A model generated the notes under the pieces. That model was not told where the DNA came from. It did not search any database and saw only the letters and a list, made by a program, of their open reading frames with translations. Position numbers and translations under genes: made by a program. From assembly GCF_041320705.1 (NCBI RefSeq), contig NZ_JBGGTQ010000008.1, positions 124,001 through 188,000 of the forward strand: a DNA stretch of 64,000 bases. Reading direction: 5' to 3'. The stretch comes from Kineococcus mangrovi (lineage in GTDB: Bacteria > Actinomycetota > Actinomycetes > Actinomycetales > Kineococcaceae). Positions 1,082 through 10,643 of the stretch are shown here, in pieces (position 1 is the first letter of the stretch; each line of letters opens with the position of its first letter).

Positions 1082-3253
<2,172 letters not shown>

Positions 3254-3405
3254 GCCCCGGATGCTGCCACCGTCCTCCGACACGGGGCGGCGGCGGACCG
3301 GGGGGCTGTGGACGACACGGCCACCCGCCGCCCGAGGGCGGGCACCGCCCGCCGACGCCGCCGTCCCACCGGGTCGCCCCGGCGGGCAGGTGCTTGACTG
3401 CGTCG

Positions 3406-4431
3406 GTGCGCTACGTCGTCATCGGAGCAGGAGCCATCGGCGGGACCCTCGGGGGCCGCCTGGGCCAGCACGGTCACGAGGTCGTCCTCGTCGCCCGTGG
3501 GGCGCACGCCGACCGCCTGCGCGCCAAGGGGTTGCGACTCCTGACGCCGACCGGTCCCGTCGAGCTGCACGCCCCCGTCGCCAACTCCCCGGCCGACGTC
3601 GAGCTCACCGCCGACGACGTGCTGGTCCTGGCCGTGAAGGTGCAGGACGCGGCGGGCCCGCTCGCCGACTGGGCCGCCGCCCCCGTCGGCGGCTCCACGG
3701 CCGGGCAGACGCTGCCGGTGGTCTGCGCGCAGAACGGCGTCGAGGGCGAACGGCTGGCGCTGCGCTGGTTCCGGCGGGTCGTCGGGGCCTGCGTGTTCCT
3801 GCCGGCCAGCCACCTCGAACCCGGTGTGGTGATCTCCGAGGGCGCGCCCGTCTCCGGCGGCCTCGTCCTGGGGCGGTACCCGCACGGGCGCGACGAGGTC
3901 GTCGAGCGCATCGCGGCCGACCTCGCCGCGTCCGGCTTCGCGACGGCCGTCAGCGACGACGTCATGGCCGCCAAGCGCGGCAAGCTGCTCGACAACAGCG
4001 GCAACGCGCTCGACGCGGTCTGCCGCCCGGGGCCGGGCTGGGAGGACCTGCGGGAGCGGGCCCGCGCCGAGGGCGAGGCCGCCCTGGCCGCCGCCGGGAC
4101 CCCGGCGCTGGGCCGGGAGCAGGCCCTCCCGCAGCTGGCCGAGATCGGCTTCCGGACCGCGCAGGTCGCCGGGACCGAACGGCTGGGCTCCTCGAGCTGG
4201 CAGAGCCTGCACCGCGGCGGGTCCATCGAGACCGACTGGCTCAACGGCGAGATCGTCCACCTCGGCCGGCAGCACGGGGTGCCGACCCCGGTCAACGAAG
4301 CCCTGCAGCTGCTGGCGGCGACGTCGGTGCGCGAGGAGCTCGGTCCCCGCGCCTTCGAGGTCGCCGACGTCCTGGCCCGCTGCGGGGCCCGCACCGGGGG
4401 GCCCGCGGCGGTCGGCGCGGAACGGGCCTGA
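3406..4431 (+). CDS. Ketopantoate reductase family protein (PanE/ApbA-like)
   Basis: A NAD(P)H-dependent 2-dehydropantoate 2-reductase family enzyme of 341 residues. The start GTG at 3406 places a Rossmann glycine motif GAGAIGG at residues 7-13, the expected distance from the N-terminus. The middle carries the family's Lys (AAKRGKLLDN) and the C-terminal domain the SIETDWLNGEI pattern typical of PanE paralogues. Many actinobacteria carry several such paralogues, so a role in pantothenate synthesis is possible but not shown: no panB/panC neighbours are present. It sits 13 bases before the VOC gene and is probably co-transcribed with it. Confidence 0.8.
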   Translation: MRYVVIGAGAIGGTLGGRLGQHGHEVVLVARGAHADRLRAKGLRLLTPTGPVELHAPVANSPADVELTADDVLVLAVKVQDAAGPLADWAAAPVGGSTAGQTLPVVCAQNGVEGERLALRWFRRVVGACVFLPASHLEPGVVISEGAPVSGGLVLGRYPHGRDEVVERIAADLAASGFATAVSDDVMAAKRGKLLDNSGNALDAVCRPGPGWEDLRERARAEGEAALAAAGTPALGREQALPQLAEIGFRTAQVAGTERLGSSSWQSLHRGGSIETDWLNGEIVHLGRQHGVPTPVNEALQLLAATSVREELGPRAFEVADVLARCGARTGGPAAVGAERA

Positions 4432-4444
4432 GAAGCTGACCGGC

Positions 4445-5095
4445 ATGCGCGTGGACCACGTCGGCTTCGCCGCCGGGCCCCAGGGCTTGTCCGAGACCGC
4501 CCGGTCCCTGGCGGCACGGCTCGGCGTGCGCGTCGTCGACGGTGGGCCCCACCCCCGCTTCGGCACCCGCAACGTCGTCCTGCCGTTGTCCGAGGGCACC
4601 TACGTCGAGGTCGTCGAGGTGCTCGACCACCCCGTCGCCGACAAGGCGCTCTTCGGCCGGGCCGTCCGCGAGCGCACCGAGGCCGGCGGTGGCTGGTTCG
4701 CCTGGAGCGTCCTCGTCGACGACCTCGAGAGCTACCGCGACCGCCTCGGCGAGGAGATCGAGGAGGGCGTCCGCCGCCGTCCCGACGGGGTCGAGCTGCG
4801 CTGGCGGCAGATCGGCGCCCCCGCGCTCAACACCGAACCGCAGCTGCCGCTGCTCATCGAGTGGGACGGCCCGCAGACCCAGCACCCGTCGGCGCTGTCG
4901 CTGGCCGGCGGCACCCGGCTGACCGGTCTGACGATCGCCGGCCAGCGCTCGCGCGTCCGCAACTGGCTGGGACTGCCGCCGGAGTTCAGCACCGACCGCG
5001 TCGAGTTCACCTGGCTCGACGTCGTCGGCAGTCCCCGCGCCACGGGCCTGCGCTCGGTGACGTTCGAGACCACCCGCGGTACCGTCGAGATCTGA
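4445..5095 (+). CDS. VOC (glyoxalase-like) domain protein
   Basis: A 216-residue protein of the vicinal-oxygen-chelate superfamily, Glyoxalase_3-like form. It opens with the characteristic first beta strand and metal-ligand-type His (MRVDHVGFA) and has an ExxxY-like strand (GTYVEVVEVLD). The second half repeats the fold less clearly. The family covers dioxygenases, isomerases and resistance proteins, so no reaction is assigned. It follows the PanE-like gene closely and precedes cardiolipin synthase by 11 bases, suggesting one transcript of mixed function. Confidence 0.72.
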   Translation: MRVDHVGFAAGPQGLSETARSLAARLGVRVVDGGPHPRFGTRNVVLPLSEGTYVEVVEVLDHPVADKALFGRAVRERTEAGGGWFAWSVLVDDLESYRDRLGEEIEEGVRRRPDGVELRWRQIGAPALNTEPQLPLLIEWDGPQTQHPSALSLAGGTRLTGLTIAGQRSRVRNWLGLPPEFSTDRVEFTWLDVVGSPRATGLRSVTFETTRGTVEI

Positions 5096-5106
5096 GCGAC
5101 CACCCG

Positions 5107-6579
5107 GTGGACTGGCCCGACTGGCTCCCTTCGCTGACGGCGTCGGCCGTCGCCCTGCTCGTCGTCGACCTCGTCGTGCGCGTCACGGCCGTCGCCGTCG
5201 TCCCCGTCAACCGCCGCCCCAGTTCCGCCCTGGCCTGGTTGCTGACGATCTTCTTCGTCCCCTACCTCGGTGTCGCCGCGTTCCTGCTCATCGGCAACCC
5301 CAAGCTGCCGCGGGCCCGTCGGCGCAAGCAGCGCGAGATCAACCGGCTGATCCTGGACTCCACCAAGGGCATGGACCTCGTCTCCACCGAACACCCCTGG
5401 CCGCCGTGGCTGTCCGGGATCGTGGAGCTGAACCGCAACCTCGGGTCGATGCCGCTCGTCGGGGGGAACTCCGCGGTGCTGTGCGGGGAGTACGACGAGG
5501 CGATCCGGGCGATGGCGCGCAGCATCGACGCTGCCCGCGAGTACGTCCACGTCGAGTTCTACATCATGACCAAGGACGCCACGAGCGAACCGTTCTTCAC
5601 CGCTCTGCAGCGCGCGGTCGAGCGTGGCGTGAAGGTCCGTCTGCTGCTGGACCACGTGGGGTCCCTGCGCTACCCGGGGTACCGCCGCACGATCCGCTTC
5701 CTCGACAGGATCGGCGTCGAGTGGCACCCGATGCTGCCCGTCCAGCTGCACAAGCTGAAGTACCAGCGCCCGGACCTGCGCAACCACCGCAAGCTGCTCG
5801 TCGTCGACGGCGAGACCGCGTGGCTGGGTTCGCAGAACGTGCTGGACCGCAGCTACAACAAGCGCGCCAACGTCAAGCGCGGTCTGCAGTGGCAGGACCT
5901 CATGGTCCACCTCGAGGGGCCGGTCGTGTCCGGGGTCGAGGCCATGTTCATCACCGACTGGTACTCCGAGACCGACGAACTGCTGCAGGCCGAACGGCCG
6001 GAGGTGTCCCCGGTGGGGTCGCCGGGCCGGCTGGAGTGCCAGGTCGTGCCGAGCGGCCCGGGGTTCGACGGGGAGAACAACCTCAAGCTGTTCAACGCGC
6101 TGCTCTACTCGGCCCAGCGCCGCATCTCCATCACGAGCCCGTACTTCGTGCCGGACGAGTCGATGCTGTCGGCGATCACGACGGCCGCCGAACGGGGGGT
6201 GGACGTCGAGCTGTTCGTCTCCGAGTACGGCGACCAGTTCTTCGTGCACTACGCCGAGTGCTCCTACTACGAGAACCTGCTGCGCTCCGGGGTGCGGATC
6301 TTCCGCTACCCCGCGCCGTACGTGCTGCACGCCAAGCACATGACCATCGACGAGGAGGTCGGCGTCATCGGTTCCTCGAACATGGACATGCGCTCGTTCA
6401 TGCTCGACCTCGAACTCACCCTCATGGTGTGCGGGCGGGAGTTCTCCGAGGCGCTGCGCCGCGTCGAGGACGGTTACCGGGCCAAGTGCACCGAGCTGAC
6501 GCTGGAGCAGTGGCTGGCGCGGTCGCGGATGCAGGTCATCAAGGAGAACGTCGCGCGGCTCACGTCCGCGCTGCAGTGA
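5107..6579 (+). CDS. cls: Cardiolipin synthase (phospholipase D family)
   Basis: Joins phosphatidylglycerol or CDP-diacylglycerol units to make cardiolipin at the inner face of the membrane. With the GTG at 5107 the protein has 490 residues. Two N-terminal membrane helices (around residues 8-28 and 38-62) are followed by two PLD catalytic motifs: H227-x-K229-x4-D234 (HRKLLVVD) and H408-x-K410-x4-D415 (HAKHMTID). Each is followed by the usual GSxN. The first domain also has the conserved REYVHVEFYIM strand. Its 3' end overlaps by 20 bases the 3' end of the convergent gene. The start is chosen because it lies just after the upstream stop and keeps both helices. Confidence 0.92.
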   Translation: MDWPDWLPSLTASAVALLVVDLVVRVTAVAVVPVNRRPSSALAWLLTIFFVPYLGVAAFLLIGNPKLPRARRRKQREINRLILDSTKGMDLVSTEHPWPPWLSGIVELNRNLGSMPLVGGNSAVLCGEYDEAIRAMARSIDAAREYVHVEFYIMTKDATSEPFFTALQRAVERGVKVRLLLDHVGSLRYPGYRRTIRFLDRIGVEWHPMLPVQLHKLKYQRPDLRNHRKLLVVDGETAWLGSQNVLDRSYNKRANVKRGLQWQDLMVHLEGPVVSGVEAMFITDWYSETDELLQAERPEVSPVGSPGRLECQVVPSGPGFDGENNLKLFNALLYSAQRRISITSPYFVPDESMLSAITTAAERGVDVELFVSEYGDQFFVHYAECSYYENLLRSGVRIFRYPAPYVLHAKHMTIDEEVGVIGSSNMDMRSFMLDLELTLMVCGREFSEALRRVEDGYRAKCTELTLEQWLARSRMQVIKENVARLTSALQ

Positions 6580-7186
6580 GCCCCCGGGCCCGCCGGACCC
6601 CCAGCGCCGCCAGTTCCAGGTCCGCCAGCGACCCCACGACCGTCGCCTCGCCCCGCAGCCAGGCCGTCGCGGGGTCGGGGTCGAGGCCCAGCAGGACCTC
6701 GCCCGGGCTGCGCTGCAACGCCCGCAGCGCCAGCACCCGTTCCCCGGCCGCGGTGCCGGCGAGCCGGTGCGCGTCCCGGACCCGCGCGGCCCATCGCAGG
6801 CGTTGCACGGCCCGCACGCCCACGACGAGCGCGATCGGCAGCAGCGCCGTCAGCAGACCGAGGACGACGGCCAGGTGGAGCACGGCGTCGCGCTGCTCAC
6901 CGGCGGCCCGGGCCAGGGAGGCGGCGCTGTCGGCCGACCGGCCCAGCAGGTCCGCCACGTCGTCGCCGACCAGGGGCGCGCGCCCCAGCGAACCGCCCGT
7001 CGACCGCAACCCGTCGGCCAGCGCCGTCGACCCGTCCGCGAACCGGCGTGCCGGTTCGGCCACGCCCGCGACGGCCGCGTGCACCGCGCGGCCGGCCGCC
7101 ACCGAGGCGACGACGACGAGCAGGCAGCCGGCGTCGGCGACCACCTGCCGGGTCCGGCGGGCGGGGAGGTCGGCGTAGAGGGGCAC
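6560..7186 (-). CDS. Hypothetical two-helix membrane protein
   Basis: Not recognised as a named family. With a GTG start at 7186 the protein has 208 residues and two clear hydrophobic segments, VVADAGCLLVVVASVAAG near residues 15-35 and LHLAVVLGLLTALLPIALVV near 100-120. An Ala/Arg-rich, probably helical linker of about 60 residues separates them. A soluble tail rich in Leu/Arg/Ala follows. The loop between helices has a repeated ADGLRS/GRSADSAASLARA pattern that may be coiled coil. It sits downstream of the antiporter on the same strand, 28 bases after its stop, and may be co-transcribed. Confidence 0.6.
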   Translation of the reverse strand: MPLYADLPARRTRQVVADAGCLLVVVASVAAGRAVHAAVAGVAEPARRFADGSTALADGLRSTGGSLGRAPLVGDDVADLLGRSADSAASLARAAGEQRDAVLHLAVVLGLLTALLPIALVVGVRAVQRLRWAARVRDAHRLAGTAAGERVLALRALQRSPGEVLLGLDPDPATAWLRGEATVVGSLADLELAALGVRRARGLTAART

Positions 7187-7214
7187 TGCTCCAGTCTGGT
7201 TCAGCCGGGCCGGT

Positions 7215-9098
7215 TCAGCCGAGCCGGGCGTCCACCCAGCACCACCGCCACGCCTCACCGGGTTCGGCGCTGACCACCGTCGGGTGCGCGGTGGCGGTGA
7301 AGTGGGCCCGGGAGTGCTGGAGCTCGGAGGAGTCGCAGCACCCGGTGTGGCCGCAGTGCAGGCAGGTCCGCAGGTGGACCCACGCCGTGCCCGCGGCGAC
7401 GCACTCGTGGCACTCCAGCGGTGGCTCGCCCCAGCGGGCGGTCGCCTCCTCGCGGCCGACGGAGACCCGCAGGTGGTCGCAACCGTCCCCGCCCGAGCGC
7501 GGGGCCAGCGCGCGGTCGGGGGCCAGCGGCTCCAGCTCCTCGAGGCGGTCCAGCAGCGACTCCTCGACGTCGACGTCGGCCAGGGCGCGCCGCAGGACCT
7601 CCGGGCTCGCGGCGCCGCGGTCGCGGGCCTCGACGACGACCGCGCGTTCGGCGGCGAGCATCTCCAGCCGCAGCCTGGAGTACAGGACCGAGGGGGTCGT
7701 GACGTCCGTCAGGGGCCGGCCCAGCCGCTCCCACGCCGCGTGCGAGCGGGCCCGGGAACGGCCGCGCAGCTGCCTGACCACGTGCTCGGGTTCGTCGCCG
7801 GTCAGGAGGTCGTCGAGGCGCCGCAGCCCCGCGCCGGCCGCGGCGTCCCCGAGGGCGGCGGCCGCCAGTGCGTCCTGGGCGGGGTCGGGACCGGGGATCG
7901 CGAGCCGCCGGACGACCGTCGGCAGGGTCAGCCCCTGCACGAGCAGCGTGCCGACCACCGTGGCGAACGCCGCCAGCAGCAGGACGTCGCGGCCGGGCAC
8001 GTCCCCCGGGATGAGCTGCGCGGCGGCGAGGGTCACGACCCCGCGCATCCCCGCCCAGGACAGCAGCAGGGACACCCCCGGTGACCAGGCGCGCGGACGC
8101 AGCCGCGGCACGGCGTGGAAGAACCCCGACGCGGCGAACACGAACGCGAACCGCGCCGCGATCGTCGCGGCCAGGACGCCGAGGCAGACGGCGAGGACGC
8201 GGGCGCCGGAGTACCCGCTGTCACCGGCCCCGGCCAGCAGCAGGGGGAACTGCAGCCCGATGAGCAGGAACACCGCGTTCTCCAGCAGGAACGCGACCGT
8301 CCGCCAGTTCAGCGTCTCGGCCACGCGGGAGGCCGCCGTCTGCACGCGCGGGGAGACGTGCGCCATCGCCAGGCCCGTGACGACCACGGCCAGCACCCCG
8401 GACACGCCGGCGGCCTCGGCGGGCAGGAACGCCAGGTACGGGGCGAGGAAGGAGACCGTGGTGTCCAGGACGGGGTTCTGGATGCGGCGCCGGGCGACGG
8501 CGAGCACGACCGCGACGACCCCGCCGACGGCGACCGCCCCCACGACGGTGAGGACGAACTGGCCGCCGATGCGCCACGGCGACAGCTCCGTCGTCAGCGC
8601 CGCCGTCGCCGTGGCGAGGGCGATGAGGGCGGAGGCGTCGTTGAGCAGGCTCTCCTCCTCCAGCATCGTCGCGACCCGGCGGGGCAGGCCGAGGCGCCGC
8701 CCGATCGCCGTGGCCGCCACCGCGTCCGGCGGGGCGACGACCGCACCCAGCGCCATGCACGCCGCCAGCGCCACCCCCGGCAGCAGCCACGACGTCGTCC
8801 AGCCCACGACGAGCGTCGTGAACACCACGAGGACGACCGACAGCAGGACCGTCGGGGTCTTGTTGCGGCGGAAGTCGACGAGCGACGTGGACGCCGTGGC
8901 GGCGTAGAGCAGGGGCGGGAGCAGGCCGTTGAGGACGAGCTCGGGGCCGAGGGTGAAGGTCGGGACCCCCGGGACGAGGGCGGCGAGCGCCCCGACGACG
9001 ACGAGGACCAGCGGGGTCGGCCACCCGAACCGGTCGCACGCCGCCGCCACCGCGCACACCCCGACCGTCAGCGCCACGAGCGCGAACGCGATCTCCAC
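7215..9098 (-). CDS. Na+/H+ antiporter (CPA1 type) with C-terminal UBP-type zinc finger
   Basis: A 627-residue monovalent cation/proton antiporter. About 12 membrane helices occupy residues 1-400 and include the family hallmarks VVAPPDAVAATAI and EEESLLNDASAL, the paired acidic site of CPA1 transporters. After a ~130-residue soluble helical region the last ~70 residues form a zinc finger of the ubiquitin-specific-protease kind (ZnF_UBP). Visible Cys/His ligands are C-D-H, CHEC, CLHCGHTGCC, then His residues in HSRAHFTATAHPT. In eukaryotes this fold reads the C-terminus of ubiquitin; here its partner is unknown. The start is the ATG beginning MEIAFALVAL. No regulator is adjacent. Confidence 0.88.
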   Translation of the reverse strand: MEIAFALVALTVGVCAVAAACDRFGWPTPLVLVVVGALAALVPGVPTFTLGPELVLNGLLPPLLYAATASTSLVDFRRNKTPTVLLSVVLVVFTTLVVGWTTSWLLPGVALAACMALGAVVAPPDAVAATAIGRRLGLPRRVATMLEEESLLNDASALIALATATAALTTELSPWRIGGQFVLTVVGAVAVGGVVAVVLAVARRRIQNPVLDTTVSFLAPYLAFLPAEAAGVSGVLAVVVTGLAMAHVSPRVQTAASRVAETLNWRTVAFLLENAVFLLIGLQFPLLLAGAGDSGYSGARVLAVCLGVLAATIAARFAFVFAASGFFHAVPRLRPRAWSPGVSLLLSWAGMRGVVTLAAAQLIPGDVPGRDVLLLAAFATVVGTLLVQGLTLPTVVRRLAIPGPDPAQDALAAAALGDAAAGAGLRRLDDLLTGDEPEHVVRQLRGRSRARSHAAWERLGRPLTDVTTPSVLYSRLRLEMLAAERAVVVEARDRGAASPEVLRRALADVDVEESLLDRLEELEPLAPDRALAPRSGGDGCDHLRVSVGREEATARWGEPPLECHECVAAGTAWVHLRTCLHCGHTGCCDSSELQHSRAHFTATAHPTVVSAEPGEAWRWCWVDARLG

Positions 9099-9130
9099 GG
9101 CGCGGAGACTACGGCGCGCCCCTGCGCGGC

Positions 9131-9170
9131 GGGGCCGGTCCCACGGTGGCGACGACGTGGGACCGGCCCC
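9131..9170 (-). terminator. Hairpin terminator after the aldehyde dehydrogenase gene
   Basis: A perfect 14-bp inverted repeat, GGGGCCGGTCCCAC at 9131-9144 and GTGGGACCGGCCCC at 9157-9170, with a 12-base loop. It lies 10 bases beyond the stop of the aldehyde dehydrogenase. It lacks a T-tract, as is common for GC-rich actinobacterial terminators. It also separates this gene from the antiporter start region. Confidence 0.7.
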
Positions 9171-9179
9171 GGGGTCCCG

Positions 9180-10643
9180 TCAGAACGGGTAGGACCCCGG
9201 CCGGCGGCGCACCGTGATCCACCGCGTCTCGGTGAACGCCTCGACGTTCGCCTCCACCCCGCCGTGCCGCGACCCCGTGCCCGAGGACCCGACGCCGCCG
9301 AAGGGGGCGTTCGCCTCGTCGTTCACCGTCTGGTCGTTGATGTGCACGATGCCGGTCGGGATGCGCTGCGCGAGTTCGTACCCGGCCATCGCGTCGGCCG
9401 TCACGATCCCCAGGGACAGGCCGTACTCGGAGTCGGTGGCCAGGGCCACGGCCTCGTCGTCGTCGCGGAAGGGAACGACGGAGGCGACCGGGCCGAACAC
9501 CTCGTCGCAGTACGCGGCGGCGTCGCGCGGCGGGTTCGCCAGCACCGTCGGCCGGTAGAACAGGCCCTCGTAGGTGCCCCCGGCGCGCAGGTCGGCGCCC
9601 TTCGCGACGGCGTCGGTGACGAGGCCGTGGACGCGGTCGCGCTGCGTCTCGTCGATGAGCGGGCCGAGGTGGACCTGACCGGCCGCGGGGTCGCCCACGT
9701 GCATCGACTCCGCCTTCGCCGCGAGCTCGTCGACGTAGGACTCGTAGAGCGACTCGTGCACGAGGTGGCGGCCCACGGTCATGCAGATCTGCCCCTGGTG
9801 CAGGAACGCGCCCCACGTCGCGAGGTTCACGGCCTCGTCGACGTCGGCGTCGTGCCGGACGAGGAAGGCGGAGTTCCCGCCGAGCTCGAGGTGGGCGCGC
9901 TTGAGGTGCTTGCCGGCGAGCTCGCCGACGCTGCGCCCGGCGCGGGTGGAACCGGTGAAGGCGATGACGCGCACGCGCGGGTCCGTGACGAGGGCCTGCC
10001 CGACGTCGCCGCCACCGGGGAGGAGCTGCAGCACCCCCGGCGGCAGCCCCGCCTCCTCGAAGATCCGGACCATCGTCACGCCGCCGGTGACGACCGTGCG
10101 GGGGTCGGGCTTGAGCAGGACGGCGTTGCCGAGGGCCAGCGCCGGTGCGACGGCGCGGATGCCGAGGATGAGCGGCACGTTGAAGGGGGAGATGACGCCG
10201 ACGACGCCGACCGGGACGCGCTGGGCCAGCGACAGCCGCGGTTCCTCGCTGGTCAGCACCGACCCCGACGTCGCCGACGGCAGCGCCGACGCCTCGTAGC
10301 ACTCGGCGGCGGTCACGTGCAGGGCGAACCCGGCCAGCGGCGGGACGGCGCCGACCTCGCGCACGTTCCAGCCGGAGATCTCCTCGGCGTGCTCCTCCCA
10401 CAACTGCCCGGCGCGGCGCAGGACGGCGGCGCGGGCGGGGTGGGGCAGGGCGGCCCACGCGCGCTGGGCCTTGGCGGCGCCCTCCGCGGCGCGGGCGACG
10501 TCGTCCGCGTCGGCCATCCCGACCTCGACGAGGGTCTTGCCCGTGGCGGGTTCGAGGCTGGGGGTGGTGCCGCCGCCGCCGGGCACCCAGGCGCCGTCGA
10601 CGTGGATGCGGCCGGCGAAGTCCTGCGGGTCCAGAAGTGTCAC
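9180..10643 (-). CDS. Aldehyde dehydrogenase (benzaldehyde/vanillin dehydrogenase-like)
   Basis: A 487-residue NAD(P)-dependent aldehyde dehydrogenase oxidising an aldehyde to the acid. The catalytic Cys is C287 in HQGQICMTVGR, and the general base Glu is in LELGGNSAFLV. The NAD-binding region reads AFTGSTRAGR. The order of motifs (SPFNVPLILGIRAVAPALALGNAVLLKPDP, HINDQTVNDE, PFGGVGSSG) matches aromatic-aldehyde dehydrogenases. The GTG at 10643 is chosen because a GAGGAGG ribosome site lies a few bases before it. The next gene upstream is an alcohol dehydrogenase 43 bases away, so the pair could oxidise an alcohol to an acid in two steps. Confidence 0.87.
   Translation of the reverse strand: MTLLDPQDFAGRIHVDGAWVPGGGGTTPSLEPATGKTLVEVGMADADDVARAAEGAAKAQRAWAALPHPARAAVLRRAGQLWEEHAEEISGWNVREVGAVPPLAGFALHVTAAECYEASALPSATSGSVLTSEEPRLSLAQRVPVGVVGVISPFNVPLILGIRAVAPALALGNAVLLKPDPRTVVTGGVTMVRIFEEAGLPPGVLQLLPGGGDVGQALVTDPRVRVIAFTGSTRAGRSVGELAGKHLKRAHLELGGNSAFLVRHDADVDEAVNLATWGAFLHQGQICMTVGRHLVHESLYESYVDELAAKAESMHVGDPAAGQVHLGPLIDETQRDRVHGLVTDAVAKGADLRAGGTYEGLFYRPTVLANPPRDAAAYCDEVFGPVASVVPFRDDDEAVALATDSEYGLSLGIVTADAMAGYELAQRIPTGIVHINDQTVNDEANAPFGGVGSSGTGSRHGGVEANVEAFTETRWITVRRRPGSYPF

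Follow-up and report, generated by a model that had tools for sequence, protein, structure and literature searches.

A CPA1-class monovalent cation/proton antiporter is predicted to be encoded in the window (the whole stretch of 64,000 nucleotides that we analyzed), and its C-terminal part is a UBP zinc finger of bacterial type, which we consider reasonably likely to be a cytosolic regulatory module, acting in gating or docking. The features of the gene are collected in Table 1. Fingers of this type are widespread in bacteria of the window's class, though named after ubiquitin, and their link to antiporters offers a concrete, assayable output, ion exchange, with which the role of a UBP finger can be tested. 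What most deserves follow-up, in our opinion, is the recurrence of the antiporter link along with a flavoprotein partner that lacks a CxxC motif.

Table 1. Features of the antiporter gene and of its product, in window positions.
Feature	Position	Strand	Basis or remark
CPA1 antiporter with C-terminal UBP-type zinc finger	7215..9098	-	single ORF, 627 amino acids, GTG start
Na_H_Exchanger membrane domain, amino acids 1-400	7899..9098	-	Pfam match at amino acids 17-397
N153-D154, CPA1 'ND' motif	8637..8642	-	sequence motif
Helical linker, amino acids 401-539	7482..7898	-	presumed cytosolic; TIGR00831 match extends to amino acid 516
UBP-type zinc finger, amino acids 540-624	7227..7481	-	profile matches, predicted fold
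C588-D589, where the ubiquitin pocket has Gly-Arg	7332..7337	-	alignment
C620, distal ligand (putative)	7239..7241	-	co-varies with N-terminal C540-x-H542 across the finger family

The first-pass annotation had described the product as a cation/proton antiporter joined to a UBP-type zinc finger, and profile searches bear out both halves of that description. The Pfam model Na_H_Exchanger matches the membrane part with an E value of 4.2e-51 (174.4 bits against a cut-off of 26.2). The best model, TIGR00831 (a_cpa1, NCBIfam), which we take to represent NhaP-like a-CPA1 Na+/H+ antiporters, scores 277.3 bits over amino acids 7-516 and narrowly misses its curated equivalog cut-off of 279.6; we therefore term the antiporter CPA1-type on the basis of Pfam, the motifs and the best model, and do not file it as an equivalog. 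The protein shares the PPD and ND motifs with the a-CPA1 antiporters and differs from them, apart from the score, by its extra C-terminal finger. PPD125 and N153-D154, the latter presumably the 'ND' motif of CPA1 antiporters, are invariant in 33 of 33 aligned CPA1-finger fusions (the fusions among the matches listed). Cation/proton exchange is the predicted activity of the product. The genome that contains the window (99.9% complete, 23 contigs) has four Na_H_Exchanger matches and a single zf-UBP match, which is this finger. An ORF on the minus strand at 6560-7258 of the window overlaps the 3' end of the antiporter gene, and a gene of about 212 amino acids recurs at four fusion loci of the same genus.

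The finger is recognized by the Pfam model zf-UBP (PF02148) at amino acids 563-617 (E value of 7.2e-8 and a score of 33 bits, the cut-off being 22.7), and a structural model of it built from 81 sequences (mean pLDDT 92.9) matches solved UBP fingers in its predicted fold. The closest of these is 2IDA (RPA1320), a hypothetical protein of Rhodopseudomonas palustris, which aligns to amino acids 560-624 with an E value of 1.1e-18, to the finger family profile with 9.1e-32, and to the finger model with a Z score of 11.3 (rmsd 2.1 over 85 residues). The hallmarks common to the two are the VHLR hairpin insertion (W573-V-H-L-R577), the CCD motif (C587-C588-D589) and the distal W-x-W-C; RPA1320 differs in being a stand-alone chain of 102 residues with no transporter fused. 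The eukaryotic ZnF-UBP domains of HDAC6, USP5, USP16 and USP49 share the fold (Z scores of 7.2-10.0; 8.7-10.0 for HDAC6 and about 8 for USP5), the zinc-ligand pattern and the aromatic residues near the pocket. They differ in having Gly-Arg in the pocket where the window finger has Cys-Asp, and compared with USP49 and HDAC6 the window finger has a four-residue hairpin insertion.

All of the finger motifs named in the first-pass annotation are present: C540-D-H542, C563-H-E-C566, C579-L-H-C-G-H-T-G-C587-C588, and the His residues H595, H599 and H605; a distal C620 follows. C540, C563, C566, C579, C582, C587, H595, H599, H605 and C620 are each kept in 33 of 33 aligned fusions, and H542 in 29 of 33. 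Every finger with a distal Cys also has an N-terminal [CDH]-x-H (57 of 57), against 4 of 27 fingers without one; three of these four exceptions are an H-x-H ahead of a likely start codon, and the fourth, in locus L095, is a WCYKC tail misread by the pattern. This covariation supports the residues as a set of ligands for an additional zinc site. A full zinc-ligand pattern is thus supported at the level of residues, the zinc site itself being putative, and C588 is probably not a zinc ligand by comparison with the eukaryotic fold. Across the 33 fusions 25 of 58 finger-core positions are invariant, compared to 58 of 400 membrane positions, a difference that arises partly by construction, because loci were found with search patterns that included GCCD and PGExW[RV]WC.

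Matches to zf-UBP occur in 174 of 296 class genomes and, within the family, in 11 of 12. The CPA1-finger fusion is encoded, with the finger in frame and an antiporter identity of 71-91%, by seven of the other ten genomes of the genus. The other three (G003, G004 and G008) have short finger frames only, as judged by frame length (the G003 match lies at a contig end), and probably lack an antiporter-finger, which counts against a regulatory role. The 80 loci among the matches listed comprise 33 CPA1 fusions, 2 CPA2 fusions (one in a Chloroflexi MAG and one in a Phycisphaerae MAG) and 45 stand-alone fingers, and are biased to window-like fingers by the same search patterns. One locus without a whole finger (L112) was dropped, and a partial fusion (L158) was excluded from the fusion alignment and from the tree.

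The tree was built by a quick method, with long branches flagged, from 83 CPA1 antiporter domains and two other exchangers of the window genome. In it, 55 fused antiporters, including that of the window, group together with seven antiporters that are split from their finger (support 89, not starred), and 21 antiporters that merely neighbor a finger fall apart from this group. The seven split antiporters form a supported group (96) that adjoins the main fused group of 53, and their grouping with the fused lineage is an argument for regulation. The labels fused, split and neighbor require two changes on the tree, which is the minimum, as opposed to a mean of 25.3 for shuffled labels. Among the families represented in the fused lineage are Geodermatophilaceae, Pseudonocardiaceae, Nocardiaceae, Nocardioidaceae, Intrasporangiaceae and Micrococcaceae; that it spans many actinomycete families on one tree indicates an old, conserved fusion. 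The first-pass annotation had taken the fusion to be real and proposed a search for it across actinobacteria, and the seven in-frame loci of the genus and the 55 fusions on one tree agree with it and lead us to reject a frame error or a chance fusion.

The association of the finger with cation antiporters extends beyond this lineage. Three architectures end in the finger, namely CPA1, CPA2 and CPA2-TrkA_N, where the label 'CPA2' is a reading of the TrkA_N domain and of similarity groups. Outside the CPA1 group the finger ORFs number 26, of which ten have an Na_H_Exchanger match and five have TrkA_N. CPA2 antiporters with TrkA_N and a finger were recognized by Pfam in L064, L066, L073 and L077 and by similarity in L082, and those without TrkA_N by Pfam in L096 and by similarity in L075, L084, L086 and L090. 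A gene of 75 amino acids adjoins the antiporter, upstream, in all five CPA2 loci without TrkA_N; we take it to resemble KhtT by position only, and no Pfam family matched in the one case tested. Among the matches listed, 22 of the 45 stand-alone loci contain an unfused CPA1 gene, in some cases 3-4 kb off, and seven others contain a flavoprotein. The split form was seen at seven loci, from Micromonosporaceae and Actinopolymorpha: the antiporter gene there precedes the finger gene in the same orientation, and in six of the seven the finger gene has a candidate start that overlaps the antiporter stop by 4 bases. Pairing of finger and antiporter, whether by fusion, by overlapping genes or by neighborhood, is thus repeated in the genomic record, and as far as gene arrangement can speak to function it points to regulation.

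A systematic sample comprised 37 loci, every fourth of the best 150 Pfam matches listed for the class. The finger is fused to an antiporter in 6 of them, an unfused antiporter lies within the 12-kb locus in 5 (at most about 4 kb away), a TrxR-like gene is present in 11, and 15 have neither an antiporter match nor a flavoprotein nearby. The last number argues against regulation; it is to be read with the facts that antiporters were called by tblastn with three query antiporters, so that these loci may hide other exchangers, and that the sample was drawn from the best-scoring rows, so that weaker fingers like that of the window are under-represented. None of seven query genes (E<=1e-8) was found in 20 control loci taken from these genomes at a distance of 100 kb, and the search, when repeated with two positive-control loci, detected both. 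The full-length model of the antiporter also counts against regulation: in it the finger has low pLDDT (blocks of 35-65) and no reliable placement on the membrane part, which is predicted to be helical throughout. On a Rhizobium leguminosarum plasmid (L117, 7998-11833) a finger and a flavoprotein lie near a gene for an ion channel of the cyclic-nucleotide-gated type (Ion_trans and cNMP_binding), again a cation-transport neighbor of the finger.

The flavoprotein is a recurrent partner of the finger. It has about 560 amino acids, with pyridine-nucleotide oxidoreductase domains joined to either a receiver or a cyclic-nucleotide domain (the cyclic-nucleotide match of L117 falls short of the cut-off), and its loci often also encode a histidine kinase with a cNMP domain. 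Loci with this TrxR-like protein include L062, L068, L075, L077, L085, L096, L103, L107, L115 and L117. Plasmid annotations name it 'cyclic nucleotide-binding domain-containing thioredoxin-disulfide reductase' (Rhodococcus) or FAD-dependent oxidoreductase (Rhodococcus, Nocardia, Rhizobium). A CxxC motif is absent from all 15 flavoproteins checked (13 together with those of L115 and L117); CATC is present in the ordinary reductase of the window genome (L118). The partner is therefore not an ordinary disulfide reductase, that activity is rejected, and the annotation as a thioredoxin-disulfide reductase is, to judge from the residues, probably misleading. The plasmid locus L115 (Rhodococcus sp. 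PD04, 1197-9900) has in one run dnaK, grpE, a J protein gene, cbpM, clpB, trxA, the finger gene and the cNMP-flavoprotein gene, so that the finger module has genes for heat-shock chaperones and for thioredoxin as neighbors.

At a threshold of E<=1e-84, 133 of the 296 class genomes have both finger and flavoprotein, 41 the finger only, 8 the flavoprotein only and 114 neither (Fisher p 5e-36, relatedness ignored); at E<=1e-60 the corresponding numbers are 136, 38, 21 and 101. The flavoprotein and the cNMP-domain kinase are each found in ten of ten congeners, and the three congener loci examined have the order flavoprotein, kinase, stand-alone finger. In the window genome the best flavoprotein match (1.9e-48) is the ordinary TrxR with CATC, and there is no match to the cNMP-domain histidine kinase at E<=1e-20; a genome of the sister genus (G011) likewise gave no match to flavoprotein or kinase beyond the ordinary reductase. 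Compared with its ten congeners (G001-G010), the window genome (G000) has no stand-alone finger either, yet the antiporter-finger stays. The finger of the antiporter thus persists there without that module. Of the 15 class genomes from which a CPA1-finger fusion was retrieved, seven (G040, G044, G091, G092, G108, G268 and G292) likewise lack the flavoprotein at E<=1e-84; for the window genome and for these seven we reject the idea that the antiporter finger depends obligately on the flavoprotein. The two are encoded in the same locus in 1 of 22 CPA1 cases (L085, with kinase), which makes a direct flavoprotein link rare for CPA1 fingers, and in 3 of 10 CPA2 cases (L075 and L077 with kinase, and L096).

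A system of this kind is reportedly not without precedent: Burroughs, Iyer and Aravind (2011, Mol Biosyst) are said to have proposed that the bacterial ZF-UBP acts in a cyclic-nucleotide-dependent redox signaling system. Relatives resemble that system in encoding the finger with a TrxR-like flavoprotein fused to a cNMP or receiver domain and with a cNMP-domain kinase; the window genome is unlike it in having no match to flavoprotein or kinase and in that the finger sits on an antiporter. Burroughs et al. 2011 is cited in PMC4506424 and in PMC11354881, and the accessible part of the latter makes no mention of UBP. The domain itself is common in bacteria, is annotated as 'UBP-type zinc finger domain-containing protein', and is already known, since it has been surveyed in print (PMC2602986) and its structure has been solved (2IDA). 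In the part of the survey available to us, zf-UBP is a mini-protein group of bacteria and archaea, Actinobacteria included, with chimeras as the major pattern; it is the same Pfam domain as the window finger, and no antiporter or function is named there. PMC4245714, as far as its accessible text goes, treats zf-UBP in eukaryotes only. Judged by its listings, a literature search gave no paper that we recognized as dealing with antiporter-UBP-finger fusions, which does not make the fusion unpublished.

With respect to mechanism, the finger would lie in the cytosol at the C-terminus of the antiporter, after the helical linker, and would control or modulate exchange. It may also relay a redox or nucleotide state, a weaker suggestion that comes from the relatives with a CxxC-less flavoprotein and a cNMP-domain kinase. 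Since these partners have no match in the window genome, the finger there would have to use another partner or sense in cis, either through its zinc-thiolates or through Cys588, which lies in the former pocket. Redox or nucleotide sensing by the antiporter finger is thus a reasoned guess by analogy, and the absence of the flavoprotein partner weakens it for the window finger.

The most specific version of such sensing is a redox or electrophile switch, in which oxidation or alkylation of the zinc-thiolates or of C588 changes the gating of the antiporter; we regard it as possible, though on balance doubtful. KefB/C, for comparison, are gated by glutathione adducts. The pyridine-nucleotide oxidoreductase domains of the flavoprotein at many loci are in agreement with such a switch, as are a thioredoxin gene beside some fingers and the fusions of the finger to CPA2-TrkA_N. 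So is the residue found where eukaryotes have the pocket Gly, which is Cys in 82 of 84 scorable class fingers (Ser in the other two). However, the partner flavoprotein without CxxC is no ordinary disulfide reductase, and it is missing from the window genome and, at the stricter threshold, from the fusion genomes listed above. A more general proposal is that UBP fingers are plug-ins through which a flavin/cyclic-nucleotide signaling module controls several lineages of monovalent cation/proton antiporters, that the old pocket has become a reactive or cation-binding site at Cys588-Asp589, and that fused antiporters like that of the window have internalized the receiver and can work without the flavoprotein; taken as a whole we find this somewhat less probable than the switch, and speculative.

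That the finger serves only the folding, assembly or dimerization of the antiporter is unlikely. In favor of such a role, it is strongly conserved in the aligned fusions and the present data show no signal; however, the finger also occurs alone and with the flavoprotein, so that a signaling or adaptor module fits better. A sensor of zinc status that adjusts antiport is more improbable still: the full zinc-ligand pattern and the covarying N-terminal CxH and distal Cys would suit it, but structural zinc sites of the UBP-finger type are usually tight.

The first-pass annotation had considered a ubiquitin-like or Pup ligand for the finger, and binding to the C-terminus of such a protein now seems scarcely credible, although the fold is retained and Pup is present in the window genome. 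We know of no use of ubiquitin by bacteria. The Arg of the eukaryotic CGR motif holds the ubiquitin tail, and HMMER alignments with USP16 and USP49 place its Gly-Arg opposite the bacterial Cys-Asp (in the alignment with zebrafish HDAC6 the Arg is displaced by a one-residue gap). Of 86 distinct finger matches in Pfam-found loci of the window's class two fragments were dropped, and in the 84 scored the pocket-Arg position is Asp in 81, Glu, Ala and Asn in one each, and Arg in none; these fingers were located by a profile from eight seeds that all have Asp at this position. The window finger has Asp589 there. Loss of the ligand pocket had been set by the first-pass annotation as a refuting test: the Arg is lost, although the aromatics W617, W619 and W621 are kept. 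All 33 aligned fusions share W617 and W619, and at position 621 they carry Phe, Tyr or Trp (the window finger has Trp), the W-x-W-C stretch having doubled as a search pattern for those fusions.

Finger and Pup, moreover, occur independently of each other. Pup is found throughout the family (12 of 12 genomes), and one of these genomes (G011) has no UBP-finger match; in a control set of 14 genomes, the finger occurs without a Pup match in Deinobacterium chartae and Methanosarcina acetivorans, and Pup occurs without a finger match in Corynebacterium glutamicum. The missing pocket Arg argues against extending the label of ubiquitin reader to bacterial UBP fingers, and with the finger recurring on or beside several types of cation pump a control switch is likelier than such a reader; the recurrent partners are cation antiporters and the flavoprotein, and a ubiquitin or Pup ligand is rejected. 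One finger of mixed character was seen at 833-1282 on the minus strand of L095, a 3.6-kb contig of an 84%-complete genome: it lacks the VHLR insertion and has a eukaryote-like CYKC tail, yet it carries the bacterial CCD, and is possibly of an intermediate type.
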